NCBI GenBank assembly: GCA_028683835.1
Contig: JAQUHB010000018.1
Coordinates: 1-59,057 of the forward strand
Source: Sulfurimonadaceae bacterium
Lineage (GTDB): Bacteria > Campylobacterota > Campylobacteria > Campylobacterales > Sulfurimonadaceae
Length of the DNA: 59,057 bases
Direction: 5' to 3'
In this document: positions 6,427 to 19,248 of the stretch, in pieces
Numbering within the stretch: position 1 is the stretch's first letter
Layout of the letters: each line of letters begins with the position of its first letter
Notes under the pieces: model-generated
The model's database searches: none
What the model saw: only the letters and a program-made list of their open reading frames with translations
What the model was told of the DNA's origin: nothing
Position numbers and translations under genes: made by a program

Positions 6427-7530
6427 ATGTATAGATATAAGTTTTTGATAGCAATTTTTGTGTTTATCATTGTAGTAACGACAGTGATTTTTCTCTATTT
6501 TCGATTTGAAGTCAAAGAAGACAAGCTCAAACATGTCCTCGATCAGTTAACGCTTGAGTTAAATGATCAACTCAAAACCAATCAAATGGATGCTTTGAAA
6601 TTAGCGCTTGCTATGTCTAGAAATAGCGCTCTTGTAGATGCACTTGAAAATGATGATGAAGATTTGGGATATCGCATTCTCTCAGATGTTACGAAAAACA
6701 TAGAAACCAATACCCATACAAAAATAAAAGCACAAATCATTACAAGCGAGTACAATATTTTTGCAAGAAGCTGGGATGATGTTTATGCAGGGATGCCTCT
6801 TGGTGATTATCGAACGGATCTTGATTACTTTAAAACGCATAATACTCCAAGAACATCGATAGAAGTGGGTCGTAGGTTAGGATTAAAAGCGACCGTTCCT
6901 ATGTATAAAAACAATCTATTTTTGGGATTTTTTGAAGTTATAGATTTTTTTGAACCCATTACGGAGTATTTTAGAACACAGGGGATAGATTTATACGTTT
7001 TGATGGATGATAAATATTATAGCACTGCCGTTTTGATGCAAGAAAATTTAACGTTCAATAAATATATAGTTGCAAACAGAAATTATAATGCAGCACATAT
7101 TGACGTGCTCAAATCTATAGATTTTGGACAGTTGAAGTCTAATAGAATTCTTTCAACCAAGGGTAGACATATCTTTTATGAAGCTATGCATAATGGCGTG
7201 GGAGAAACGATAGGCGCATTTGTGATGATTCTGCCAGATAAATATTTAAATTATTTCAGAGATCCCGAAGATGATATATCATTTTTAATCAACGTAAAGA
7301 GAGGCAGTTTATATAACATTCAAAAAAATAAAGAGATGCAAAGTGGCGATCTTTATAATTTCAATAATCCTTCTGATATTTTTTATATGAAAAATATTGT
7401 ATCGGGGGAAGATAAAGCAGACTTTTCAAATCAAGCATATAAAAAGCTAAGTCATTACTCAAAAGATGAATTGATCCAACTTATACTGGACAATCAGGCA
7501 GTGAAACATATAGATGGGAAAATTAAATGA
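6427..7530 (+). CDS. Membrane-anchored cache-type sensor protein without output domain
   Basis: 367 residues with one N-terminal transmembrane helix (about residues 6-26) and no recognisable second helix, so nearly all of the protein should face the periplasm. The middle part (including GDYRTDLDYFK, then VEVGRR-like and LFLGFFEVIDFFEP segments) resembles periplasmic double-cache ligand-binding domains of chemoreceptors and kinases. No HAMP, kinase, GGDEF or methyl-accepting domain follows; the C-terminus ends in a short helical segment. The stop overlaps the start of the response-regulator gene (ATGA), and a histidine kinase follows. I infer that it acts as a separate ligand-sensing subunit for that kinase; the ligand is unknown. 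Confidence 0.7.
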   Translation: MYRYKFLIAIFVFIIVVTTVIFLYFRFEVKEDKLKHVLDQLTLELNDQLKTNQMDALKLALAMSRNSALVDALENDDEDLGYRILSDVTKNIETNTHTKIKAQIITSEYNIFARSWDDVYAGMPLGDYRTDLDYFKTHNTPRTSIEVGRRLGLKATVPMYKNNLFLGFFEVIDFFEPITEYFRTQGIDLYVLMDDKYYSTAVLMQENLTFNKYIVANRNYNAAHIDVLKSIDFGQLKSNRILSTKGRHIFYEAMHNGVGETIGAFVMILPDKYLNYFRDPEDDISFLINVKRGSLYNIQKNKEMQSGDLYNFNNPSDIFYMKNIVSGEDKADFSNQAYKKLSHYSKDELIQLILDNQAVKHIDGKIK

Positions 7531-8183
7531 AAATTTTATTGTTAGAAGATGAATACTCTTTACGAATCAGTATCAAAGAGTTTTTAGAAGATATTGGTCA
7601 CACGGTAGATGCTTTTATGGATGGACTTGATGCCTACAATGCAGTTTTTGATAAAACTTATAACCTTTTACTCCTTGACGTGAATGTGCCTTCCCTCTCA
7701 GGATTTCAACTTTTGGAAAATCTGCATAAAGAAGATATGAAAATACCAACTATTTTTTTAACTTCAATGACAGATATCTCAAATCTTAGACAGGGGTATG
7801 AAAAGGGCTGTTGCGACTATATTAGAAAGCCTTTTGATCTTGAAGAACTCGAACTTCGTATCTCTCAAGCCTACAAAAGTTGCTACACTGATGACAGCCA
7901 TTTCATAGATCTAGGACAAAATGTAAACTACAATATGACCAAAGGAAAACTCACTTTAAATAATGAAGAGGTGATTTTAAGAAAAGCTGAAAAAGATATT
8001 TTGGAAGTGTTGATAAGATATAAGAATACGGTTGTTTCCATCGCGACAATTCAGGATGAAGCTTGGGGCGAATATGTCGAACCGGCAACAATAAGAGTAC
8101 AGATGAAAAATCTTCGACAAAAGATTCCCGAGGGAATTATTCAAAATCGCAGAGGTTTAGGATATATCATTGAACGATCTTAA
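7527..8183 (+). CDS. OmpR-family response regulator
   Basis: A DNA-binding two-component regulator of 218 residues. The receiver domain (about 1-115) has the acidic pair E7/D8, phosphoacceptor D51 in LLLLDVNVPS, T79/S80 and the conserved K101 in YIRKPF. A winged-helix output domain fills residues 130-218 and ends with the RRGLGYII signature of the OmpR/PhoB class. It overlaps the sensor gene before it by 4 bases and the kinase gene after it by 14 bases. The neighbouring sox operon is a possible target, but no operator has been identified. Confidence 0.93.
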   Translation: MKILLLEDEYSLRISIKEFLEDIGHTVDAFMDGLDAYNAVFDKTYNLLLLDVNVPSLSGFQLLENLHKEDMKIPTIFLTSMTDISNLRQGYEKGCCDYIRKPFDLEELELRISQAYKSCYTDDSHFIDLGQNVNYNMTKGKLTLNNEEVILRKAEKDILEVLIRYKNTVVSIATIQDEAWGEYVEPATIRVQMKNLRQKIPEGIIQNRRGLGYIIERS

Positions 8184-9333
8184 ATACGCCGTACAAAATG
8201 CTTTTATTTATACTGCACTCGTAGCGGTCATTTTATTGGCGCCATTATTTTTTTATTTTATCTATATGAAAAATATTTATTCCATAAAAAATGAGTTAGT
8301 TTTAAAAGAAAAATCCTTAATGATTATCAAATCTATGGAGGAGTTTAACCAAGATGATCCATATTTTGAGTATCCAAGGTTTCAGACATTTCAATCGGGT
8401 TTGTATGATATAAGATTTAAGCCTATTTTTTCTCTCATTCATTATGATATTAAAAATTTTAAAGAGGGCTATCATATTGATGAGAGTGATGCATATTTAA
8501 TTATCTCTCTTCCAAAAGACAGATATTTCGGTGCAAGTTACTTGATAGTAAAAAACAGTGTTTCTTATGCAGATCTTTATAAGAATGTTGCGACTATCTT
8601 GTTCTCCATTGCTTTATTGGTGTTTGGGCTTAGTATGTTCTTTTTAAATAATTTTGCAAAACCATTCAAACTCGTCAATCAAAAACTTGATAATTTTATT
8701 AAAGACTCCATTCATGAGATCAATACTCCTTTGGCGATTATCAATGTCAATATAGATCTTTACAACAGAAAAAATCCGACCAATAAGTATATGCAAAGAA
8801 TGAAAGCTGCTGTAAAAGTTTTATCGCACATCTATGAGGATATGGATTATTTAGTAAAGTACAATAGAATAGATCATGCACCTGTAGAGATCGATTTTAC
8901 AAAATTTATGAAAGATCGGATAGATTATTTTTCAGATGTAGCTTCTATGAAAGAGATACTCATAGAGAGTGATATAGAAAATAATATTTCAATTTTTATG
9001 AACTATAAAGAGCTACAAAGAGTTGTAGATAATAATATTTCAAACGCGATCAAGTATTCGTATGAAAATAATATCATCAAAATATCCTTACATATAAGAG
9101 ATCAAGTGTGTAGTATGAGTTTTCAAGATTATGGTGTCGGTATAGAAAAGGTTGAAAAAATTTTTGAACGTTACTATAGAGAAAACACCAATAAAGGGGG
9201 GTTTGGTATTGGTCTTAACATTGTTAAATCGATTATTGATAAAGAGGGGATCATTTTAACTATCGAATCAGCCCTAAAACAAGGGAGTACTTTTACCTAT
9301 ACTTTTCCAGAAAGAATCATCACTCTTCATTAA
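8170..9333 (+). CDS. Sensor histidine kinase
   Basis: A membrane histidine kinase of 387 residues. It has two transmembrane segments (about 13-33 and 141-160) framing a periplasmic loop of roughly 105 residues, then a dimerisation domain with the phosphorylated His in DSIHEINTPLAII (H182), an N box (NNISNAIKYSYENN) and G boxes (DYGVGIEK, GGFGIGLNIVKSI). The start is a TTG inside the end of the regulator gene; the next ATG would remove half of the first membrane helix. It presumably phosphorylates the upstream regulator, possibly with the cache protein as ligand sensor. Confidence 0.9.
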   Translation: MNDLKYAVQNAFIYTALVAVILLAPLFFYFIYMKNIYSIKNELVLKEKSLMIIKSMEEFNQDDPYFEYPRFQTFQSGLYDIRFKPIFSLIHYDIKNFKEGYHIDESDAYLIISLPKDRYFGASYLIVKNSVSYADLYKNVATILFSIALLVFGLSMFFLNNFAKPFKLVNQKLDNFIKDSIHEINTPLAIINVNIDLYNRKNPTNKYMQRMKAAVKVLSHIYEDMDYLVKYNRIDHAPVEIDFTKFMKDRIDYFSDVASMKEILIESDIENNISIFMNYKELQRVVDNNISNAIKYSYENNIIKISLHIRDQVCSMSFQDYGVGIEKVEKIFERYYRENTNKGGFGIGLNIVKSIIDKEGIILTIESALKQGSTFTYTFPERIITLH

Positions 9334-9385
9334 AATAAAAAAATCCGCAAAAATAACTTCATTTTATATAAATTTTACACTTCAC

Positions 9386-9394
9386 TGTTAAACT
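9386..9394 (+). promoter_or_regulatory. Possible extended -10 upstream of soxX
   Basis: TGTTAAACT fits a TGn-extended -10 element 31 bases before soxX, in an AT-rich gap of 91 bases that separates the kinase gene from the sox genes. No good -35 was found, so the assignment is tentative. A strong ribosome-binding site (AAGGAGGAAG) precedes the start codon. Confidence 0.3.
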
Positions 9395-9424
9395 ACCCTC
9401 GAATCAAAATAAGGAGGAAGTAAA

Positions 9425-9946
9425 ATGAGAATTAGCCTAATGGCTTCATTACTTCTTGGATGTTCTTTATTCGCTGTTGATTATAGCAGTATGATAGAAA
9501 GTCCAAATGCAAGTACAATAATACAAAAAGATCTACTGGGCTCAGCAAAGGCATCTACCATGCCAACTGATTGTATTTCAACTGATCCAAAAGCAATTGC
9601 TAGAGGCGCTTTTATTTTTCACAATCTTAACGGTGAAACGAAAGATACTCCACCAGAGGGATTAAGTAAAAAAAATAGTGATGGTTCTGAGAAACAATTT
9701 GGAAATTGTATTGCTTGTCATAATATTGAGGGTGCCAAAGGTGCTGGAAATATTGGTCCTGACCTTCACAATTACAAAAAGAACTTTATTGACAGCGGTG
9801 CAAGAAATGATCAATTTGTGTATCAAAAAATTGCTGATGCACGTATCGACAACCCAAATACTCACATGACAATAAACCTGACTACAGGATTATTTAATCA
9901 AAGAGAAATATGTGACATAGCGTCATATATCGTATCTCCAAAATAA
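9425..9946 (+). CDS. soxX: SoxX, monoheme c-type cytochrome subunit of SoxXA
   Basis: SoxX accepts electrons when SoxA joins thiosulfate to the SoxY carrier in the periplasm. The 173-residue precursor has one heme-binding motif (C95IACH99), and M148 in THMTINL is a plausible distal ligand. The N-terminal hydrophobic segment is a signal sequence; it contains LLGC at residues 10-13, which loosely resembles a lipobox, so soluble or lipid-anchored export is open. Two further cysteines (C50, C163) lie outside the heme motif. A strong ribosome-binding site and position first in a soxXYZAB run support the call. Confidence 0.93.
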   Translation: MRISLMASLLLGCSLFAVDYSSMIESPNASTIIQKDLLGSAKASTMPTDCISTDPKAIARGAFIFHNLNGETKDTPPEGLSKKNSDGSEKQFGNCIACHNIEGAKGAGNIGPDLHNYKKNFIDSGARNDQFVYQKIADARIDNPNTHMTINLTTGLFNQREICDIASYIVSPK

Positions 9947-9963
9947 AAGAAGGGAAATTAATT

Positions 9964-10428
9964 ATGCAAAGAAGAGATTTTATTAAAACATTAGGAGCTG
10001 CAGCGGTTATCGGCGCAGTTGTACCAGCTATGAGTTTTGCAGCAGATGCACCAAAAGGGCCAAATGCATTTTCGTACAAACAAGCACTTGATACTATTAC
10101 AGGTGGAAAAACACCGGTTAAGTCAGAGAAGATACATTTAAAAGTTCCAGAAATCGCTGAAAATGGCGCCGTTGTTCCAGTAACTGTAGAAGTTGATTCT
10201 CCTATGACTGAGAGTGACTATGTGAAAGCAATTTATATATTTGCTACAAAAAACAATAATGTCCGTTGTGTTGCTATGCATCTTACTCCGGCAAATGGAA
10301 AAGCTATTCTTGGAACTCGTGTTAAGTTAGGCGGAACACAAGATGTGGCAGCTTTGGTAGAGATGAGCGACGGTTCTTTCTTGGTGAATTCTCAAAGCGT
10401 TAAGGTAACAATCGGTGGATGTGGTTGA
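9964..10428 (+). CDS. soxY: SoxY, thiosulfate-carrier protein
   Basis: SoxY carries sulfur intermediates on a C-terminal swinging-arm cysteine in the periplasm. The 154-residue precursor begins with a twin-arginine signal (RRDFIK, then a hydrophobic stretch and an AxA-type cleavage region near residues 20-27). It ends in IGGCG, the carrier Cys being residue 153; the common family ending is GGCGG, so this one is a glycine shorter. The gene sits between soxX and soxZ, its obligate partner, as expected. Confidence 0.95.
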   Translation: MQRRDFIKTLGAAAVIGAVVPAMSFAADAPKGPNAFSYKQALDTITGGKTPVKSEKIHLKVPEIAENGAVVPVTVEVDSPMTESDYVKAIYIFATKNNNVRCVAMHLTPANGKAILGTRVKLGGTQDVAALVEMSDGSFLVNSQSVKVTIGGCG

Positions 10429-10478
10429 TTATCAACCAAGATTAAATTTATAAAAAAATAACTAATAAAGGATTTACT

Positions 10479-10814
10479 ATGGAAGAAAGAAAAGCATTAA
10501 TTAAGATCAAACCAAAGAGCTACGCAGATGGTGAAATCGTAAAAGTTGATTTTATGGTTATGCATCCTATGGAAACTGGTATGCGTAAAGATAAAAAAAC
10601 AGGACAAGTTGTTCCTGCAAAATACATTAACAGTGTGAAGTTTGATTACAATGGAAAAATCATCACATCTATGAATGTTTGGGAATCTGTATCGGTGAAC
10701 CCTGTCTTTACTATTTACATGAAAGTAAATGGAGCAGGAAATCTGAAAGTTACTTTTACTGATAGCACTGGCGAAGTAAATGAGAGTAGCATTGAAATTA
10801 AGCCTAAAGGCTGA
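10479..10814 (+). CDS. soxZ: SoxZ, partner of SoxY
   Basis: SoxZ forms the SoxYZ heterodimer that presents the SoxY cysteine to the other Sox enzymes. The 111-residue protein has no signal peptide, as is normal: it is exported bound to Tat-dependent SoxY. Family features include KIKPKSYADGEIVKVDF at the start, MHPMETG and the predicted immunoglobulin-like beta sandwich. A 50-base gap separates it from soxY and three bases separate it from soxA. Confidence 0.95.
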   Translation: MEERKALIKIKPKSYADGEIVKVDFMVMHPMETGMRKDKKTGQVVPAKYINSVKFDYNGKIITSMNVWESVSVNPVFTIYMKVNGAGNLKVTFTDSTGEVNESSIEIKPKG

Positions 10815-10817
10815 GCT

Positions 10818-11585
10818 ATGAAAAGCATATTAAAGATAACGTTAGGTGTTGCTCTATTCACATCACTATCATATTCTAGCGAACAATTTGCTATGAGTGA
10901 TGCGGATCGTGCAATGTATGCAGACTTATTGGATGCGAATCCCGCTGATATGATGGTTCAAGATGGGAAAGAACTTCTTAGTAAGTATGGTGGCGGAGAC
11001 GCTGGCCTTGCAAAGTTCTTACATGTAAGCGAAGATAAACTTCCAGCATTCATTGCAGGATTTCCAAGATATTTACCAGATTTTAAAAAGGTAGTTGGTC
11101 TTGGTCAGGTTGCGCAAGCGCTTATGGTAACAAATGGCAATAAAGCATTTGCTCTAAAAGACCCAAAGATGTTTAACATGGTAGCTTATATAAAATCGAT
11201 AGCAAATGATGAAAAGATTAATATAGATGTCAATGCAAACCAGCAGATGAAAGATGCGTATGCTTTGGGAGAAAAAACATTTAATGAAAGACGTGGCGGT
11301 AGAGGTTTGTCTTGTCTAAGTTGTCATAGTGCAGATGTTGTCGGTTCTATTCTTAGAACACAGCCTCTTCCTGATCTTGGTGTTAACAACTCTGGTGGAA
11401 CATGGCCGGCATATAGAATGACAAAGTCATCATTAAGCACTATGCAACACCGCTTTCAAGGTTGTATGAACAATGCTCTTCAGGCAGTAATCCCTCTTGG
11501 ATCACCTGAGATGGTAGGACTTGAAGTTTACGTAACGAACAAAGCGAAGGGAAAAGCTATCGCTATTCCCGGATTAAAAAGATAG
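10818..11585 (+). CDS. soxA: SoxA, monoheme c-type cytochrome, L-cysteine S-thiosulfotransferase subunit
   Basis: With SoxX it oxidatively joins thiosulfate to the SoxY cysteine. The 255-residue precursor has a signal peptide (about 1-20), one heme motif (C166LSCH170) and the active-site Cys C216 in HRFQGCMNNAL, which ligates the catalytic heme in the family. The N-terminal half contains no cysteine at all, so the extra heme of diheme SoxA proteins is absent. One TTACATGTAA palindrome lies inside the gene at 11029. Confidence 0.94.
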   Translation: MKSILKITLGVALFTSLSYSSEQFAMSDADRAMYADLLDANPADMMVQDGKELLSKYGGGDAGLAKFLHVSEDKLPAFIAGFPRYLPDFKKVVGLGQVAQALMVTNGNKAFALKDPKMFNMVAYIKSIANDEKINIDVNANQQMKDAYALGEKTFNERRGGRGLSCLSCHSADVVGSILRTQPLPDLGVNNSGGTWPAYRMTKSSLSTMQHRFQGCMNNALQAVIPLGSPEMVGLEVYVTNKAKGKAIAIPGLKR

Positions 11586-11594
11586 GAGGCGAAT

Positions 11595-13355
11595 ATGGAA
11601 ATTTCAAGAAGAGATTTTATGCATATTGCTGCAATTTTTGGACTTGGTATGGCTACAACAGGCTATGCCGCTCCTAGATCTGCAGCGGATATATCGCTAA
11701 AAGATTTGTATGATTTCAAAGCAAAAGGAAAAGTTACACTACTTCATATGTGTGACCTTCACGCGCATATCAAACCGCTTTATTGGAGAGAACCTTCAAC
11801 TTTGATCTCGGCTCCAAATCTTGTAGGAACTCCAGGATTTTTATGTGGTGAAGCATTCGCAAAACATTATGGACTAGAGCCTAGCAGTCTTGATGCATAT
11901 TTTGATACATATATGGATTTTGATGTTTTGGCTAAAAAGTTTGGAAAAATGGGCGGTATCGCTCACATAAAAACTTATCTTGATCATGTAAGAGCTGAAC
12001 GAGGAAATGAAAATGTACTTTTCCTAGATTCTGGAGATACTTGGCAGGGAACGGGTGTTGCACTCAAAACTGGCGGTGAAGCAATTGTAAAAGCACAAAA
12101 TTACCTTGGTGTAGATGTAATGGTCGGTCACTGGGAATTTACTTACGGAAAGAAAAGAGTAAAAGAGCTTATAGGCATGTTAAATGCAAAATTTATCTCT
12201 CAAAATATCATCGGTGATGATTCATTTGCAGATGATTTTGAAGAGTTGATCTTTAAACCGTATACAATTGAAGAAAAAGGTGGCGCGAAGATTGGTATTA
12301 TCGGTCAGTCATTTCCATTTACATCTACAGCAAATCCAAAAGAGTTTACACAAGGATGGAGCTTTGGTCTAAGACTTGATACGCTTCAAAAATATGTAGA
12401 TGAATTAAGAGATGAGCATAAAGTTGATTGTGTGGTTCTTCTATCACATGATGGTTTTAGTGTTGATCAAGAGGTTGCTCGTCAAGTGAACGGGATAGAT
12501 TTTATCTTGAGCGGACATACACATGATCCTTCTCCTCAGCCTATCACGATCAACAAAACTGTGATCGTCATAGCAGGAAGCCATGGCAAATACATTGGCC
12601 GTCTTGATGTTGATATCAAAGATGGAAAAGTAAAAGGTTATGAGTATAAACTTGTTCCGATGGCGTCTCATATGATTCCAGCAGATCCAGCGGGAGTAAA
12701 ACTTGTCAACGAACTTTATGCACCTTTTGATGCAGAGTTTAATGAAGTATTGGGAAAAACGAAAAATATGCTTTATAAAAGGGATACATTTTTCTCGACT
12801 TTTGATCAGTTGATCAACGATGCGATCTTGGATGAAATGAAATGTGATATCTCATTTACACCTGGATATAGATGGGGAACAACTGTTCTCGCCGGTGATG
12901 ATATTTTGATGGATAATGTCTATGAGATGTGTGGTATCACGTACCCGAATGTGTATACATTTGAGTTAAAAGGACAGCATATCGCTTCACTTTTAGAAGA
13001 TATCGCAGATAATGTTTTTAATGCAAATCCACTTTATCAACAAGGTGGAGACATGAGTCGTCTCGGTGGTGCTACATATGATATCGCCGTTGCAAATAAA
13101 GCTGGAAAACGTATCACGAACTTGAAAATTGGCGGTAAACCAATAGATCTGAAGAAAACTTATATCGTTTCTTCATGGGGTGGGAATTTACAAAATGCAG
13201 GAGCAAATCTTCAAAAAGAGAAGATCAGAGCTGTGTATGATGTGACAAGAGATTATATAAAAAGACAAAAAGTTGTAGATGTCAGCAATAAAGGCAATGT
13301 GACTTTAGTGGACTATACCTGTGGATGTCCAGAAAAAGGGACGCGAGGGAAGTAG
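11595..13355 (+). CDS. soxB: SoxB, thiosulfohydrolase
   Basis: SoxB hydrolytically releases sulfate from SoxYZ-bound thiosulfate or sulfonate intermediates, using a dinuclear manganese site. The 586-residue precursor has a twin-arginine signal (SRRDFMH and a hydrophobic core). Metallophosphatase-fold motifs are in order: CDLHAHIKP (D54, H56), DSGDTWQGTG, VGHWEFTYG (the SoxB form of the GNHE motif), LLSHDG and SGHTHDP. The C-terminal 5'-nucleotidase-like domain follows. A ribosome-binding site (AGGAGG) precedes the ATG. It is the last gene of the sox run and is followed by a strong hairpin. Confidence 0.97.
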   Translation: MEISRRDFMHIAAIFGLGMATTGYAAPRSAADISLKDLYDFKAKGKVTLLHMCDLHAHIKPLYWREPSTLISAPNLVGTPGFLCGEAFAKHYGLEPSSLDAYFDTYMDFDVLAKKFGKMGGIAHIKTYLDHVRAERGNENVLFLDSGDTWQGTGVALKTGGEAIVKAQNYLGVDVMVGHWEFTYGKKRVKELIGMLNAKFISQNIIGDDSFADDFEELIFKPYTIEEKGGAKIGIIGQSFPFTSTANPKEFTQGWSFGLRLDTLQKYVDELRDEHKVDCVVLLSHDGFSVDQEVARQVNGIDFILSGHTHDPSPQPITINKTVIVIAGSHGKYIGRLDVDIKDGKVKGYEYKLVPMASHMIPADPAGVKLVNELYAPFDAEFNEVLGKTKNMLYKRDTFFSTFDQLINDAILDEMKCDISFTPGYRWGTTVLAGDDILMDNVYEMCGITYPNVYTFELKGQHIASLLEDIADNVFNANPLYQQGGDMSRLGGATYDIAVANKAGKRITNLKIGGKPIDLKKTYIVSSWGGNLQNAGANLQKEKIRAVYDVTRDYIKRQKVVDVSNKGNVTLVDYTCGCPEKGTRGK

Positions 13356-13359
13356 GCTT

Positions 13360-13395
13360 TGTAAGCAGAAAGCGTAATTTCTGCTTACATTTAAA
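13360..13395 (+). terminator. Perfect 12-bp hairpin after soxB
   Basis: TGTAAGCAGAAA (13360-13371) and TTTCTGCTTACA (13378-13389) pair without mismatch around the 6-base loop GCGTAA. A short AT-rich tail (TTTAAATAT) follows. The position four bases after the soxB stop suits a terminator or a 3'-end stabiliser that separates sox expression from the porin gene. Confidence 0.65.
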
Positions 13396-13463
13396 TATAC
13401 ATATAACGACATAAATGGACATTAGTATTATGGCATTTTAGTGAATTAAATAAGGGAAATGAA

Positions 13464-14999
13464 ATGAAATTATTAAAACTAAGCGCAGCTGCGGCATTGG
13501 CATGTCTTCTCACAACTTCGGCAAACGCTGATGAAGAAAAAGCAAAACGTGATCTAAAAGATAATATGCAAGAGGTCTATAATGTTCTTCCAAGCAGTGT
13601 AGATAACTTAAGTGATGCCTTTACAAAAGGTATGTTCTATGGTCGTTTACGTATGAATGCATTTAAATATGATTGGAAAAATCAAGTAGCAGGTAAAAAT
13701 AAAAATAATAGCGAACTTGGTCTTGGTGGCAGTCTTATTTATAAAACGGCACCTTTTGCAGGTTTGAGTGCTACTGCTGGCTTTTACTATTCTGATAGCC
13801 CTTTTGTTGGGATGCGCGTAGATAATGCAGCTGATTTAACGTATATGAAAAGTGGAAAAGATACTATCAGCCGCTATGATGCATATAACAGTGGTGATTA
13901 TTATATGGCTGTTCTAGGACAAGCGTATTTGCAATATGATATCTCTAAAACTTCAGTAAAAGCTGGACGCCAAATTTTCGAATCATTATTAACAGCTTCA
14001 AATGATACAAAAATGATTCCAAATACTTTTGAGGGTTATACTGTTGAGACAAAAGAGATTCCAAAAACAACGATTCGTGGAGCTCTATTTACAGCAGAAA
14101 AACTTCGTGACCATTCCACTTTTTGTGATGTCATTACATATGGCGATGGTTCTTCAAATGCGAAAGCGACATGGAACGGAAATGATGATTCCGTAGCACA
14201 TCAAGGTTTAAGCTATGCAAATTTTGTGAAGGCTGGTAGAGATGTAAACCATAAGCTGATCGTTGCAGATATTGACAATAAATCGATAGATAATTTGAAA
14301 ATCGATGTCACATATACGACAGTACCTGATGTTGTATCAAATATTGCCGGCGAATTAAATTATAAAATACCGTTACCAGGTGGGTACTCTTTAACTCCAG
14401 GTATACGTTATATGCAACAAATAGATAACGGTGGTGGCGATGTTGGTGGGGCAAGTTTAAGTGGCAAACTTGTTACTTGGACAGGAACTACCCCTACATA
14501 TCATAGTAACTTAGGTTATAGTAGTCCAAAAAGCTTAGATGGTTCAATAGGCATGGCTCGTTTGGTTCTTAACAATGGTCCTTTAAAAGCACAAATTGCA
14601 TATTCTCAAGTTGCAGATGATGCGGATATCGTAGCTCCATGGAGAGGATTCCCAACCGGAGGGTATACACGTGCAATGGCTCAATATAACTGGTATGCAA
14701 ACACAAAAACATATGATGCAGAGATAGGTTATGACTTTGGAAAAGCAAAAATCCTTAAAGGTTTCAGTACTTTAGTTCGCTACGCTGCTCAAGATTTTGA
14801 TAAGAAAAAACAACTCGCCGGTGTACAGGCGGATAGCAAGGTTGTGGAAATCGATCTTCGTCAAAAAATCGCAAAAGGGTTAGATGCAAAACTTCGTGTA
14901 GGAATCGCGAGTTCTGATAAAATGACTTATGGCACATATGCTGGTAAAGATATTGGCTCGTATAACGAATACCGTTTCGAGATAAATTACCTATTCTAA
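13464..14999 (+). CDS. Outer-membrane porin (OprD-like, Campylobacterota type)
   Basis: A 511-residue precursor with a clear Sec signal peptide (about 1-22, ending SANA). It then shows alternating hydrophobic strands rich in Gly, Tyr and Asn and a C-terminal YRFEINYLF ending in Phe, the mark of an outer-membrane beta barrel. The overall pattern (RLRMNAF, LQYDISKTSVKAGRQ, VRYAAQDF) resembles OprD-type porins of this phylum. It stands between the sox genes and the redox/sulfur accessory genes, so passage of thiosulfate or other sulfur compounds is a reasonable inference, not a demonstrated one. It has its own ribosome-binding site and probably its own promoter. Confidence 0.8.
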   Translation: MKLLKLSAAAALACLLTTSANADEEKAKRDLKDNMQEVYNVLPSSVDNLSDAFTKGMFYGRLRMNAFKYDWKNQVAGKNKNNSELGLGGSLIYKTAPFAGLSATAGFYYSDSPFVGMRVDNAADLTYMKSGKDTISRYDAYNSGDYYMAVLGQAYLQYDISKTSVKAGRQIFESLLTASNDTKMIPNTFEGYTVETKEIPKTTIRGALFTAEKLRDHSTFCDVITYGDGSSNAKATWNGNDDSVAHQGLSYANFVKAGRDVNHKLIVADIDNKSIDNLKIDVTYTTVPDVVSNIAGELNYKIPLPGGYSLTPGIRYMQQIDNGGGDVGGASLSGKLVTWTGTTPTYHSNLGYSSPKSLDGSIGMARLVLNNGPLKAQIAYSQVADDADIVAPWRGFPTGGYTRAMAQYNWYANTKTYDAEIGYDFGKAKILKGFSTLVRYAAQDFDKKKQLAGVQADSKVVEIDLRQKIAKGLDAKLRVGIASSDKMTYGTYAGKDIGSYNEYRFEINYLF

Positions 15000-15056
15000 A
15001 AAAGGGCGTGAGAGTTTATCTCTTGGCCTAAATAAAAATATATAAAGGTTGTGTTC

Positions 15057-15962
15057 ATGAAATTTCTTTTGGTTTGCATTGTTTTTTTTCATTCTCTCCA
15101 TGCATTCGATTATAAATTGAAGCCCGAAAAAGTAAATGCTACTACATTTTGCTTTTTTGGGTCTCCAGAAGAGATCAATAAACACAACAATGGAAATATG
15201 GTCAACTCCTGTTTTGTAAATATGGGGAACAGCTATCTCGTTGTAGATAGCGGCCCTACATATCAGTACGCCGCACAAGCGTATACAAAGATGAAAGAGA
15301 TAAAAAATCTTCCTGTCTCTTATGTCATCAATACACATGTTCATGACGATCACTGGCTTGGAAATGGCTACTATAAAGAGCTGGGCGTCAACATCATAGG
15401 TTCAGTCAAATTTCAAGATGAGACAAAAGCTGAAATGACAAGAATGCAAAGAAATGTGAGTAAAGATGCATATGTAAAAACAATGCAAGTATTTCCAAAT
15501 CTTTTTGTAGATAAAGAAAAAATATTCATAGTAGATGGCAAAAAAATAGTAATAACCGGTGTAAATAAAAAAGCTCATACTTCCAGTGATCTTCTCGTTT
15601 ACATACCCGAGTACGCAACACTCTTTGTTGGAGATGTCATTTTTAACAATCGCTTACCATCATTAAGAGATGGCAATATTTTAGAATGGATAAAAGAGCT
15701 TGATAAGATAAAAGCGATGAAGGCCGAATATGTTATAGGCGGACATGGGACTAAGACAGATGCAAGTTCACTTGATTTTACTTATAACTATTTAGTCGAG
15801 CTTAGAGACAAGGTAGCAAAAAAACTTGAAGAGGGCAAAGATATCGAAGATGCCATTACAAATATCAAGATGCCTTCATATGAGAAAGTAAATATGTACG
15901 ATACGCTGCAAAAACAAAATATTGATACAGCTTATCGGACTATGGAGTGGAATAATGACTAA
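15057..15962 (+). CDS. Exported metallo-beta-lactamase-fold hydrolase (SoxH-like)
   Basis: A 301-residue protein with a signal peptide (about 1-16). The metal-binding motif THVHDDH (H94, H96, D98, H99), a later AHTSSD and GDVIF, and a final GGHG motif place it in the metallo-beta-lactamase superfamily; architecture and context resemble SoxH/quinoprotein-relay hydrolases. The start chosen is the ATG at 15057, 8 bases after AAAGG; the in-frame GTG at 15051 is too close to that site. The next gene starts inside its last codons. The substrate is unknown; a glutathione or protein thioester, polysulfide or persulfide is conceivable. Confidence 0.85.
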   Translation: MKFLLVCIVFFHSLHAFDYKLKPEKVNATTFCFFGSPEEINKHNNGNMVNSCFVNMGNSYLVVDSGPTYQYAAQAYTKMKEIKNLPVSYVINTHVHDDHWLGNGYYKELGVNIIGSVKFQDETKAEMTRMQRNVSKDAYVKTMQVFPNLFVDKEKIFIVDGKKIVITGVNKKAHTSSDLLVYIPEYATLFVGDVIFNNRLPSLRDGNILEWIKELDKIKAMKAEYVIGGHGTKTDASSLDFTYNYLVELRDKVAKKLEEGKDIEDAITNIKMPSYEKVNMYDTLQKQNIDTAYRTMEWNND

Positions 15963-16329
15963 GATATCCGTTTTATTTTTATTGGCAGCTATTTCTCTTG
16001 GTGCGACAGAATGGAAAAATTATGATGAGGGACTTCTTGAACAAAAAAGTTCACACAAGCCCATTATGATTGATGTTGTTCGAACAAATTGTCACTATTG
16101 TATCAATATGGAAAAAACAGTGTTTGAAGATAAAGAGATGAGTGCATGGATAGAAAAAAGGTTTATTCCTGTCAAAATAAATATTGATCATGAAAAACTT
16201 CCTTTAGGTCTAACTACTTCCTTTACACCGACTTTTTATTTTGTGGATGAAAAGCATAATGTACTTAAAAAAATACCAGGTTCTTGGAACATCGAAGATT
16301 TCAAAGACCTGACAAGGAATATTAAATGA
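15955..16329 (+). CDS. Periplasmic thioredoxin-like protein with CHYC motif (SoxW-like)
   Basis: A 124-residue protein with a short signal sequence (about 1-16) and a thioredoxin fold. The redox motif is C46-H-Y-C49 in VVRTNCHYCINME, followed by a cis-proline loop (FTPTFYFVD) and GSWNIEDFK near the end. This resembles SoxW-type and other exported thioredoxins that keep Sox or carrier cysteines reduced. The start overlaps the preceding gene by 8 bases, and its stop overlaps the following DsrE gene (ATGA), so the three genes are likely translated together. Confidence 0.85.
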   Translation: MTKISVLFLLAAISLGATEWKNYDEGLLEQKSSHKPIMIDVVRTNCHYCINMEKTVFEDKEMSAWIEKRFIPVKINIDHEKLPLGLTTSFTPTFYFVDEKHNVLKKIPGSWNIEDFKDLTRNIK

Positions 16330-16760
16330 TAAAAGTTCTAATTTCACTTTTGATGATGAGTATTTTTGCGTATGCCGATACGATATTTGCAAAGCCTTTG
16401 CCATCGATTGATAATCCTCGAAAGATTGTTTTTTCTATCCATAGTGCAGATGAAGAAACGATCAATCATGTTCTAAGCAGTGCCAACAATGTCTTAAAGT
16501 TTTATGGACCTGAAAAAGTAAATATGGAGATTGTTGCCTACTACCACGGTATTGAAGCAGTTCTAAAAAAGAACAAAGAGATCGCATCAAGAGTTGAGAC
16601 ATTGATGCAATATGACGTAAAGTTTATTGCTTGTGGAAATACTATGCAAACAAAACATATCAAAAAAGAGGAACTCATCGATGGTGTTGAGATTGTAACT
16701 GCTGGGATCGTCGAAGTTACAGAGCGAGTTCAAGATGGTTGGGTCTATATAGTCCCTTAA
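16326..16760 (+). CDS. Exported DsrE-like protein (first copy)
   Basis: A 144-residue protein with a signal peptide (about 1-17). The rest fits the DsrE/DsrF-like fold: KIVFSIHSADEE at the first strand, NMEIVAYYHGIEAVL, and a single conserved cysteine C103 in KFIACGNTMQ. DsrE proteins bind or relay persulfide sulfur, and exported versions are often found beside sulfur-oxidation genes. A second, divergent DsrE gene lies two genes downstream. The role in sulfur transfer is inferred from family and context. Confidence 0.85.
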   Translation: MIKVLISLLMMSIFAYADTIFAKPLPSIDNPRKIVFSIHSADEETINHVLSSANNVLKFYGPEKVNMEIVAYYHGIEAVLKKNKEIASRVETLMQYDVKFIACGNTMQTKHIKKEELIDGVEIVTAGIVEVTERVQDGWVYIVP

Positions 16761-16790
16761 TATTTATAAATCAAAAAAAAGGAAAAAGAA

Positions 16791-17714
16791 ATGAAAAAAA
16801 TTGTTAGTATCGTTGTTACACTTTTAATGAGTGTAGCTTTACAAGCCGCTGGTGATCTACATCTTTTTGATGTTGATAATGCAAATGGAGCTATAACTCC
16901 GCAGAAAATAGAAGACGCATTACACAAAAATGGTTTTATGACAGGGATACGCTCAGAGATGACAACACCTTTTACAAAACAGTTTCAAAAGAGTGACTTT
17001 AAAGTGTTTACACTTTTAACAGTATTTAATCCTAAGATTGATAATACCCTTGTAAAACAGTTTCCACATGCTGGTATTTTTATCCCAATGGGTGTGGGAA
17101 TTTATCAAGCTAATGGTGAAAAAACTTTACATGTAAGTATCTTGACTTCAGAAGCTGAAGCAAAGATCATAGGAATCGCAAATAATTCTATGCTTCAAGA
17201 AAGAGAAACACTGGCAATCAAAGCTATTAAAGAGGCGATGCCAAATGCAAAACAGTCGCTTAGTGAAGATTCTTTAAAAGAGAGTAGAAATCTTGCGACG
17301 ATGTATGAGCTAAAACTAGATGGTGGTGACTGGAAAGCTGCAAAACAACAACTAGAAATGGGTCTTGAAGGCGGTTTTGTTCCTCGCGGTTTTGTGATGG
17401 CGGCTTCTATGGATTATGATGCAGATGTTTTTCAAGACGACGGCAAGGAAAATCCGTATGATTTTTATGAAACTTATTCTATTTGTAAACTTCCAATTAT
17501 TTATACGGTTGCCAAAAGCAGACCAGAAGCTGCCGCATTTGCACCTTGTACAACGATAGTGTATAAGAAAAAAAATGAGGACAAAATCGTTGTAGGTTTT
17601 CCTGCGGTATACAATTGGTTAAGCAGTGCAAAAGTGGAAGACAAAGAAGCAAAAGAATCTTTGCTTAAAGGGCAAGAAGAATTTGAAGCTATTTTAAAAG
17701 AGGTAACAGAATGA
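16791..17714 (+). CDS. Exported DUF302 family protein
   Basis: A 307-residue protein with a signal peptide (about 1-19). The first half carries a DUF302-like domain (IEDALHKNGFMTGIRSEMT, then FKVFTLLTVFNPKI, and HAGIFIPMGVGIYQ). The second half (from about residue 160) is a helical/mixed region with a second alpha-beta segment and two cysteines (in SICKLPI and FAPCTT). DUF302 has no established function. It sits between two DsrE genes, its stop overlapping the second one (ATGA), which suggests that the three act together. A TTACATGTAA palindrome lies at 17127. Confidence 0.75.
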   Translation: MKKIVSIVVTLLMSVALQAAGDLHLFDVDNANGAITPQKIEDALHKNGFMTGIRSEMTTPFTKQFQKSDFKVFTLLTVFNPKIDNTLVKQFPHAGIFIPMGVGIYQANGEKTLHVSILTSEAEAKIIGIANNSMLQERETLAIKAIKEAMPNAKQSLSEDSLKESRNLATMYELKLDGGDWKAAKQQLEMGLEGGFVPRGFVMAASMDYDADVFQDDGKENPYDFYETYSICKLPIIYTVAKSRPEAAAFAPCTTIVYKKKNEDKIVVGFPAVYNWLSSAKVEDKEAKESLLKGQEEFEAILKEVTE

Positions 17715-18175
17715 AAAAGATTCTGCTTCTTCTTGCAATGTTGAGTTTTCTTTACGGCGATGATGGAGTGAAAAAAGTTGTTTTTGATCTCACGACCGGC
17801 GATATGCATGTTTTTAAGCAAAAGGTTCTCTCAGGTATTTCAAATCAAAGAAGCTATTATGAGGGAAAGCTTGAAGAACTCAAAGTTGCGGTGGTGATAC
17901 ATGGAGATGCTTACAAATTTTTTATTAAAGATTTGGACAACTCTCCGTATAAAAATGATGTTGCCCTTGTAAAAGAGAGAGCAGAGATCAGTCAAAGACT
18001 TTTAACTTTAGCTAAAAGCAGTAACGTCGAATTTCTCATGTGTCAAACAGGTATGGAACATAAAAAGATAGATAAGACAATTGTTGATTCATATGTCAAA
18101 TTTGTTCCAAATGCAACTATAGGACTTATAGATAAACAAAGCGAAGGTTACGTTTATATCCCGATTATGAATTAA
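17711..18175 (+). CDS. Exported DsrE-like protein (second copy)
   Basis: A 154-residue protein with a short signal peptide (about 1-16) and a DsrE-like fold: KKVVFDLTTGD, LKVAVVIHGDAYKFF, a helical ERAEISQRL segment and one conserved cysteine C111 in EFLMCQTGMEH. It is clearly different from the first DsrE copy 1.4 kb upstream, so it is an old paralogue rather than a recent duplication. It ends the plus-strand accessory group; the next gene is on the opposite strand. Sulfur binding at C111 is inferred. Confidence 0.83.
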   Translation: MKKILLLLAMLSFLYGDDGVKKVVFDLTTGDMHVFKQKVLSGISNQRSYYEGKLEELKVAVVIHGDAYKFFIKDLDNSPYKNDVALVKERAEISQRLLTLAKSSNVEFLMCQTGMEHKKIDKTIVDSYVKFVPNATIGLIDKQSEGYVYIPIMN

Positions 18176-18194
18176 AACACTGAGTATCTTTCTA

Positions 18195-18227
18195 ACGGAT
18201 CAAGGAACTTAAAGTTCCTACCTCCGT
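18195..18227. terminator. Long hairpin between convergent genes, probable bidirectional terminator
   Basis: A nested inverted repeat: ACGGA (18195-18199) pairs with TCCGT (18223-18227), and AGGAACTT (18203-18210) pairs with AAGTTCCT (18212-18219), separated by a 3x3 internal loop. It lies in the 89-base gap between the plus-strand DsrE gene and the minus-strand hemerythrin/PAS gene, so it may end transcripts from both sides. No long T run is adjacent. Confidence 0.5.
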
Positions 18228-18264
18228 CTGGGTCATTTCTCTTGAACAGTCTTACATCGTATCT

Positions 18265-19248
18265 TTATTCCCAGTCAAGTAGCCTTTGTTGCCCTTGCAA
18301 TCCTCTGATATGTGTAACATCTTGGCTTACTTCTATAACCCCCTTATAAACACCCTCATCATTTCTAATAGCAAAATATCTGATGTGAATAAATTTTCCT
18401 TTGAACTCTATCCAAAACTCTGCTTCATCTCTGCGACCGGCTTTAAATTCTCTAAGTATCATGAGTACTTGATCCACACTTTTTGGAGGGTGACAAAATT
18501 TCACTTCCCTTCCTATGATCCCTGCACTTCTTGGAAATACTCTCTCATCACCGCGATTGTAAAAGATAACGATGTCGTTTTCATCAACATAGGTTATGTC
18601 TACAGGCATAAACTTCAGGAGCAAATTGATTTGCTCAGGAAGCATATACCCCTCATCAAGTTTGATTCTGTTTTCAAGAGAGAAAGGAAGCTTTCTTCTT
18701 GAAGTATCTTGGCTTGGATGGATATATTCTTCTTGCGTAATGGCAGGAAATGCCGGAGGTGCTTCGTCAAACATCCAACCTATCTCCTCTTCTCCAATTC
18801 TCATCTCTATCCATTCATCAGCGTTTAGCATATTAAAAGCTCTCGGTAAAAGTCTTTGCTCTTCCACTTGCATAATATGCTCTAAATTGCTAAAAACTAT
18901 TTGAAGATTTTGACTTATACTGAGGATGTCTTGTACTTTTATTGCACTACGCACAGCTTTAATCTCATCTCTTATTTGATCATGAAAGGCCCACATGTTT
19001 TGGCTTGGACTTGTCCAACCATATTTTTCCAAGTAGGGAAAAAGCTGATTTTCTTTTCTAGCAAAATGTTTCTCAATAAGGCAAAGTTTATCAAATAGTC
19101 TTGTAAACTCTTCGTTTTCACCTACTATATTTATCTTGCTGATTTTTGAGATTACTTCCCTGATTAATTTGTTTTCATCCAGATAAACTTTTACCGGATG
19201 ACCTTCTGGTATATTTGAAGATCTGTCTTGCCCTAAAAATTCACTCAT
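18265..19248 (-). CDS. DUF438-type hemerythrin/PAS protein
   Basis: A 327-residue soluble protein. Residues about 40-150 carry a helical HHE-type domain with candidate metal ligands in EKHFARKENQLFP, AFHDQIRDE and NLEHIMQVEEQRLLPRA; this can bind a diiron centre or heme/oxygen. Residues about 205-320 are a PAS domain (MPVDITYVDENDIVIFYNRG, then a FCHPPKS loop and IRYFAIRNDEGVYKGVIEV). The architecture matches the DUF438/PAS family suspected of sensing oxygen, NO or redox state. It is transcribed alone, divergent from the ABC-exporter operon. AAGGAAA precedes the start on the minus strand. Confidence 0.83.
   Translation of the reverse strand: MSEFLGQDRSSNIPEGHPVKVYLDENKLIREVISKISKINIVGENEEFTRLFDKLCLIEKHFARKENQLFPYLEKYGWTSPSQNMWAFHDQIRDEIKAVRSAIKVQDILSISQNLQIVFSNLEHIMQVEEQRLLPRAFNMLNADEWIEMRIGEEEIGWMFDEAPPAFPAITQEEYIHPSQDTSRRKLPFSLENRIKLDEGYMLPEQINLLLKFMPVDITYVDENDIVIFYNRGDERVFPRSAGIIGREVKFCHPPKSVDQVLMILREFKAGRRDEAEFWIEFKGKFIHIRYFAIRNDEGVYKGVIEVSQDVTHIRGLQGQQRLLDWE

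Follow-up and report, generated by a model that had tools for sequence, protein, structure and literature searches.

What do the genes that follow a sox cluster contribute to sulfur oxidation in Campylobacterota, which are dominant sulfur oxidizers at vents and in sulfidic sediments? We asked this of a Sulfurimonadaceae genome (GCA_028683835.1) in which the window, a 59,057-nucleotide stretch that makes up one entire contig (JAQUHB010000018.1, our G000:C85), carries soxXYZAB, an outer-membrane porin gene and then, at 15057-18175, a module of five genes. These encode a SoxH-like metallo-beta-lactamase (MBL)-fold hydrolase, a thioredoxin-like protein, a DsrE protein (DsrEa), a tandem DUF302 protein and a second DsrE paralogue (DsrEb) (Table 1). 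A preliminary description of this DNA had given the five genes, their order, overlaps and domains, and their position after soxXYZAB and the porin, all of which was confirmed by open reading frame (ORF) and Pfam analysis. The hydrolase and thioredoxin genes overlap by 8 bp, the thioredoxin and DsrEa genes and the DUF302 and DsrEb genes each overlap by 4 bp (ATGA), and 30 bp separate DsrEa from DUF302. By a hydropathy test, as distinct from SignalP, a hydrophobic N-terminus is present in all five proteins and in more than 90% of the homologues of each. We found that a set built around DsrE and DUF302 recurs beside one sox lineage in Campylobacterales; the kind of gene set to which it belongs, sox accessory genes, is known.

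To define the module, we searched 150 Campylobacterales genomes for DUF302 and obtained a match in 41. The gene order regulator, soxXYZAB, porin, hydrolase, thioredoxin, DsrE, DUF302 was repeated in most of the first 20 neighbourhoods in other genomes. In a scan of named genomes the best 80 of 269 relatives were kept, with organism-named rows belonging to Campylobacterota, and gene content was counted at the 45 of these 80 loci that had more than 6.5 kb of upstream flank. Beside DUF302 at these loci were soxY and soxZ (44/45), soxXAB (42/45) and DsrEa (41/45), followed by the hydrolase (37/45), porin (35/45), thioredoxin (24/45) and DsrEb (14/45). Since DsrEa is found at more loci than the hydrolase, the thioredoxin or DsrEb, DsrE and DUF302 form the constant core of the module; the other three are variable members, and the two-DsrE form in the window is one variant. 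The placement of DUF302 between two DsrE genes, highlighted in the preliminary description, is thus true of the window and optional elsewhere, while the co-occurrence with soxXYZAB that it had proposed as a check was borne out, both at these loci and among genomes whose soxB has no adjacent soxC (see below). A Sulfurovum mangrovi plasmid is annotated with the same five genes in the same order (MBL, DUF255-type thioredoxin, DsrE, DUF302, DsrE). In genome G068 (L173), the genes for an FCSD-type (flavocytochrome c sulfide dehydrogenase) flavoprotein, SoxY, SoxZ and a Rieske protein precede DUF302; soxC is absent and no soxB scored over cut-off. In at least eight genomes, a DUF302 paralogue adjoins soxCDY2Z2. 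Together with the soxXYZAB loci, these arrangements make soxYZ the common neighbour of DUF302.

Two of these loci have peculiarities of their own. On the S. mangrovi plasmid (L158:9001-10775), soxB is split into four ORF pieces and the porin gene into two, with the other sox and module genes intact, which suggests frameshifts or sequencing errors. In a single-contig genome (L047; G141:C1:1757000-1776900), a truncated MBL gene, two thioredoxin genes, DsrEa and DUF302 are present as three tandem copies with identical scores and 3883-bp spacing, the copy nearest the porin having a full-length MBL gene; this is either a recent amplification or an assembly artefact.

DUF302 is, to our knowledge, a family without known function. 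The window protein belongs to it (PF03625; 42.3 bits against a cut-off of 23), and alignment of its N- and C-terminal halves (hhalign 96.5%, E 9e-10) showed it to be a tandem repeat. Two cysteines, C232 and C253, are invariant (59/59). Both lie in the second repeat, and the pair is kept only there, the first repeat having methionine at the C253-equivalent position in 52/59 proteins. The repeat structure and the cysteine pair are additions to the preliminary description. A search of PDB sequences with the DUF302 profile gave only weak matches (1q9u, E 0.041), and the assignment came from fold comparison: in the AlphaFold2 model (predicted local distance difference test (pLDDT) 92.2), the C-terminal repeat matched 1q9u with Z 11.5 over 128 residues (root-mean-square deviation (rmsd) 2.2) and 1j3m with Z 10.4. 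The 21-residue cysteine spacing is also seen in some DUF302 proteins outside sox, including one in the same genome, and in the sox-linked protein of Methylosinus, and we therefore consider the pair a general feature of the family. Away from sox we also observed 1040- to 1070-residue proteins in which DUF302 is repeated several times (L163-L165; G107, G131 and G095), the first of which is encoded next to genes resembling resistance-nodulation-division (RND) exporters, and a long DUF302 protein that has lost both cysteines (L180; G141:C1:1060853).

Both DsrE copies belong to the DsrE/DsrF-like family (PF02635) by Pfam score over cut-off and a conserved cysteine, with a fold match in addition for DsrEa. 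In DsrEa this cysteine, C103, is conserved in 51/51 sequences; in DsrEb the C111 column is cysteine in 28/28, a set that includes S. mangrovi and two Methylosinus DsrE proteins. The AlphaFold2 model of DsrEa (pLDDT 94.8) was most similar to 1l1s (MTH1491; Z 20.5, 111 residues, rmsd 1.0), with further matches to ST0148, YchN, TusD and DsrE. DsrEa has the fold and conserved cysteine in common with MTH1491, ST0148, Escherichia coli YchN and DsrE-TusD; the hydrophobic, signal-like N-terminus, however, sets the window DsrE apart from them. A third exported-looking DsrE is encoded in the same genome (51777-52136 on G000:C5; L178), co-oriented with and just 5' of a sensor, response regulator and kinase set paralogous to the one that precedes sox in the window.

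The hydrolase belongs to the MBL-fold metallo-hydrolase superfamily by its Lactamase_B match, its HxHxDH motif and its distal H, D and H. The metal site, HVHDDH (H94, H96, D98, H99) with H174, D193 and H230, is intact, and its ligands are kept in about 60 of 63 aligned proteins, as are two further cysteines, C32 (59/63) and C52 (60/63). Against TIGR04558 and TIGR04559 it scored 186 bits (cut-off 280) and 170 bits (cut-off 300), the latter SoxH-related with E 9.4e-55; judged by these scores, it is homologous to, and not a member of, either curated SoxH/quinoprotein-relay zinc metallohydrolase equivalog. Beta-lactamase was rejected as its function, as the beta-lactamase models fell far under their cut-offs and the best models were SoxH-related. 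SoxH of Paracoccus pantotrophus (L159) shares the fold and is homologous (E 3e-29), but with N, Q, H and A in place of H94, H96, D98 and H99 it lacks the HxHxDH motif, which the window protein keeps, and the C32/C52-type cysteines are an extra feature of the window protein. The P. pantotrophus gene lies at L159:16105-17058, and the Ruegeria homologue shows identical substitutions. The thioredoxin-like protein has the fold and a CHYC motif, and CxxC is present in 47/47 homologues; as for a periplasmic Sox thioredoxin (SoxW/SoxS), which would be partnered with a CcdA/SoxV reductant carrier, no CcdA was found in the cluster neighbourhood, the part of the genome that was read for it. All of the motifs named in the preliminary description (CHYC, HxHxDH, C103 and C111) are therefore present, as are the hydrophobic N-termini.

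Parts of the module have been reported elsewhere. In Sulfurovum indicum ST-419, soxH1, soxW and dsrE, the same three gene types, lie beside a likewise split sox cluster, soxABXY1Z1, and are up 2.17-3.83-fold on thiosulfate versus elemental sulfur (S0); neither DUF302 nor a second DsrE is mentioned in that paper, and no joint mechanism is put forward (PMC10045233). This thiosulfate induction of relatives of three of the genes, together with the DsrE fold and conserved cysteine, upholds the earlier view of a Sox-linked set with a sulfur/redox role in the periplasm. In Acidithiobacillia and Thiohalorhabdus, a DUF302 gene is likewise found within a soxCD-less sox cluster, between soxA and soxB, but the product is a single 191-residue protein, no DsrE or MBL was reported, and trithionate oxidation was proposed (PMC5037610, PMC5248467). 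Sulfitobacter sox clusters, like the window, contain DsrE, DUF302 and SoxH; unlike it, they include soxCD, with DUF302 between soxF and soxH (or soxG) and DsrE between soxB and soxC (PMC11034169). We also compared plasmid records from other phyla, a handful rather than a survey. On pOB3b1 of Methylosinus trichosporium OB3b (L162), the order soxZ-soxB-DsrE-DsrE-DUF302 resembles the window in having two DsrE genes and DUF302 directly after soxB, and differs in its single DUF302 domain, its lack of MBL and thioredoxin genes and its alphaproteobacterial SoxB. DUF302 was near soxB on plasmids of Ruegeria and Paracoccus SMMA_5_TC, both with soxC, and was not listed near soxB in those of Rhodobacter CZR27, P. 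ferrooxidans, Allomeiothermus or Bradyrhizobium betae. The module as a whole was not described in any paper that we found in the open-access literature, which leaves most subscription journals outside; the statement that this is not a characterized system accordingly stands for the whole set, although pieces were already reported in Sulfurovum, Acidithiobacillia and Sulfitobacter.

The preliminary description had reasoned from an absence of soxCD to a SoxCD-less route. As it stated, there is no soxCD on this contig and hence none adjacent to soxXYZAB, but SoxC is encoded elsewhere in the genome (G000:C51:32820-34067; 595 bits, over cut-off), adjoined by a dihaem-type cytochrome, soxY2, soxZ2 and a thioredoxin. 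We scored soxC as adjacent when within 15 kb of soxB in 44 soxB genomes, one of which (G054) has a partial soxB below cut-off. DUF302 was present in 25/28 genomes without soxC nearby and in 1/16 with it, there at an unlinked place. Fisher tests gave 9e-13 for soxB/DUF302 and 5e-8 for the contrast of split and joined soxCD; both treat genomes as independent, and we do not use them as measures of evidence because the SoxB tree shows that the genomes are not. In this tree of 75 rows, module-linked SoxB grouped together (66 rows, 99/85), apart from the group that held the five soxCD-adjacent SoxB sampled, so that the DUF302/soxCD contrast separates two SoxB clades and represents one evolutionary event, not 40 independent ones. 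Where soxCD adjoins the sox cluster, DsrE and thioredoxin are retained and DUF302 is missing, which makes DsrE and thioredoxin general Sox companions rather than a SoxCD substitute. The argument from soxCD absence thus fails for this genome, while a SoxCD-less route is still compatible with 13/26 genomes carrying both soxB and DUF302, about half of the carriers, in which no SoxC scored over cut-off; five of these (G018, G036, G064, G096 and G103) are assemblies of one or two contigs. Because of these 13 genomes, and because Sulfuricurvum genomes, which carry the module, are without soxCD (PMC4288042), a SoxCD-independent role for the module is possible; at the level of gene content, the module is not tied to SoxCD. 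No DsrA over cut-off was found in the 12 of these 13 genomes that were tested or in the window's own genome, and rDsr (reverse dissimilatory sulfite reductase) was rejected as the sulfane-sulfur sink in these genomes; sHdr was outside the search.

We tentatively propose, at somewhat less than an even chance, that the module is a soxXYZAB accessory set that handles thiols or persulfides on the periplasmic SoxYZ carrier. This SoxYZ-directed reading builds on soxYZ as the shared neighbour, the invariant C232/C253 and C103, the sulfurtransferase-family fold of DsrEa, the Methylosinus gene order, the thiosulfate induction in S. indicum, and the 13 SoxC-less carriers with no DsrA over cut-off in those tested. 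The single DsrE cysteine would take sulfane sulfur, or a blocking persulfide or polysulfide, off the swinging-arm cysteine of SoxY, and the tandem DUF302 protein, via C232/C253, would hand this sulfur on or release it by thiol-disulfide exchange. Where present, thioredoxin may re-reduce DsrE, DUF302 or SoxY, and the SoxH-like hydrolase could cleave a thiol-linked product or trapped adduct by hydrolysis. SoxYZ would be kept loadable with or without SoxCD, the sulfur exiting as polysulfide or S0 or re-entering the cycle. The persulfide-carrying cysteines, the transfer order and the hydrolase substrate in this scheme are putative. Several observations weigh against it: SoxYZ is a presumptive partner, linked to the module by gene neighbourhood only; the cysteine pair is general to DUF302, unrelated contexts included, and not Sox-specific; DsrE and thioredoxin also accompany soxCD-containing clusters; and DUF302 lies beside soxCD on the Ruegeria and Paracoccus plasmids.

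Alternatively, the module may carry no sulfur and instead serve redox housekeeping, maintaining periplasmic thiols, those of SoxY and SoxA included, in the reduced state and repairing over-oxidized or disulfide-linked SoxYZ. SoxS, SoxV and SoxW are thought to do such thiol upkeep in Alphaproteobacteria, where CcdA and thioredoxin genes are part of sox clusters, and both the CxxC thioredoxin of this operon and the presence of DsrE and thioredoxin beside soxB in soxCD-adjacent clusters fit this role. However, thioredoxin is inconstant where DsrE and DUF302 are the most constant members, and DsrE, with one cysteine on a sulfurtransferase fold, is not a dithiol reductase; we consider housekeeping somewhat unlikely. 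Unlikely, too, is a stricter form of the SoxYZ-directed reading, in which DsrE and the tandem DUF302 would constitute a periplasmic relay for sulfane sulfur, so far undescribed, and unload SoxY-persulfide without SoxCD, with C232/C253 as acceptor or releasing site. Such a relay, if true, would be the first biochemical function for DUF302 and would explain SoxYZ recycling in SoxCD-less Campylobacterota. The DsrE–DUF302 pair are in any case candidate genes for the fate of sulfane sulfur in Campylobacterota with SoxCD missing or encoded apart, and the module offers a testable role for DUF302, with C232, C253 and C103 as the residues of interest.

That the module removes or oxidizes SoxYZ sulfane sulfur in place of SoxCD, the stronger form of the preliminary description's reading, we consider decidedly improbable. 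It would fit the carriers with neither SoxC nor DsrA over cut-off, Sulfuricurvum among the soxCD-less carriers, and the near-exclusivity of the module and adjacent soxCD. That exclusivity, however, tracks the single split between two SoxB clades, SoxC is present in the window's own genome and half of the carriers, and the set has no oxidizing enzyme (molybdenum or haem); moreover, authors expect sulfur release from a strain with soxABXY1Z1 alone, as for SoxCD-less strains generally (PMC12403661). Simple replacement of SoxCD was dropped as the main explanation after the own-genome SoxC and the DUF302 genes beside soxCD in other bacteria were found. Sequence data do not discriminate between relay, reductive repair and SoxCD replacement. 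The adjoining porin and a DUF302 relative in a cyanobacterial sqr/arsenic context (PMC5061849) might speak for a set of sulfide, polysulfide or metalloid tolerance genes merely sharing the sox promoter. This is very improbable, since throughout the order the module is almost always linked to soxYZ and soxXYZAB, and it recurs beside sox in another phylum.

Table 1. Features of the sox region and module in the window
Feature	Position	Strand	Evidence
dCache_3 sensor, response regulator and histidine kinase, 5' of soxX	6427..9333	+	dCache_3 1.6e-12
soxXYZAB	9425..13355	+	SoxB/SoxY/SoxZ TIGR models and cytochrome domains
soxX	9425-9946	+	
soxY	9964-10428	+	
soxZ	10479-10814	+	
soxA	10818-11585	+	
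soxB	11595-13355	+	
OprD-type outer-membrane porin, between soxB and module	13464..14999	+	Pfam OprD 3.6e-13
SoxH-like MBL-fold metallo-hydrolase, hydrophobic N-terminus	15057..15962	+	Pfam Lactamase_B 1.1e-20
Thioredoxin-like protein, CHYC, hydrophobic N-terminus	15955..16329	+	Pfam Thioredoxin_7 / Thioredoxin_2 / DsbH ~1e-11
DsrEa, conserved C103	16326..16760	+	Pfam DsrE 1.8e-9
Tandem DUF302 protein	16791..17714	+	Pfam DUF302 6.9e-11, two stretches
DsrEb, second DsrE paralogue, conserved C111	17711..18175	+	Pfam DsrE 3e-9

The sox genes upstream of the module scored over each model's cut-off for SoxB (TIGR04486, 3e-238), SoxY (TIGR04488, 5e-49) and SoxZ (TIGR04490, 4e-32), and Pfam matches in the cluster included SoxA/TsdA cytochrome and cytochrome c domains. 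The order of the sensor, regulator and kinase set 5' of soxX is kept in homologous loci, and the dCache_3 sensor and two-component pair are the probable regulator of the sox cluster. Scanning 9300-18700 for promoters and terminators yielded no signal above shuffles, and for this reason no transcript boundary was placed. Downstream, a gene for a hemerythrin and PAS protein (18265-19248, - strand) is convergent with DsrEb, the last gene of the module.

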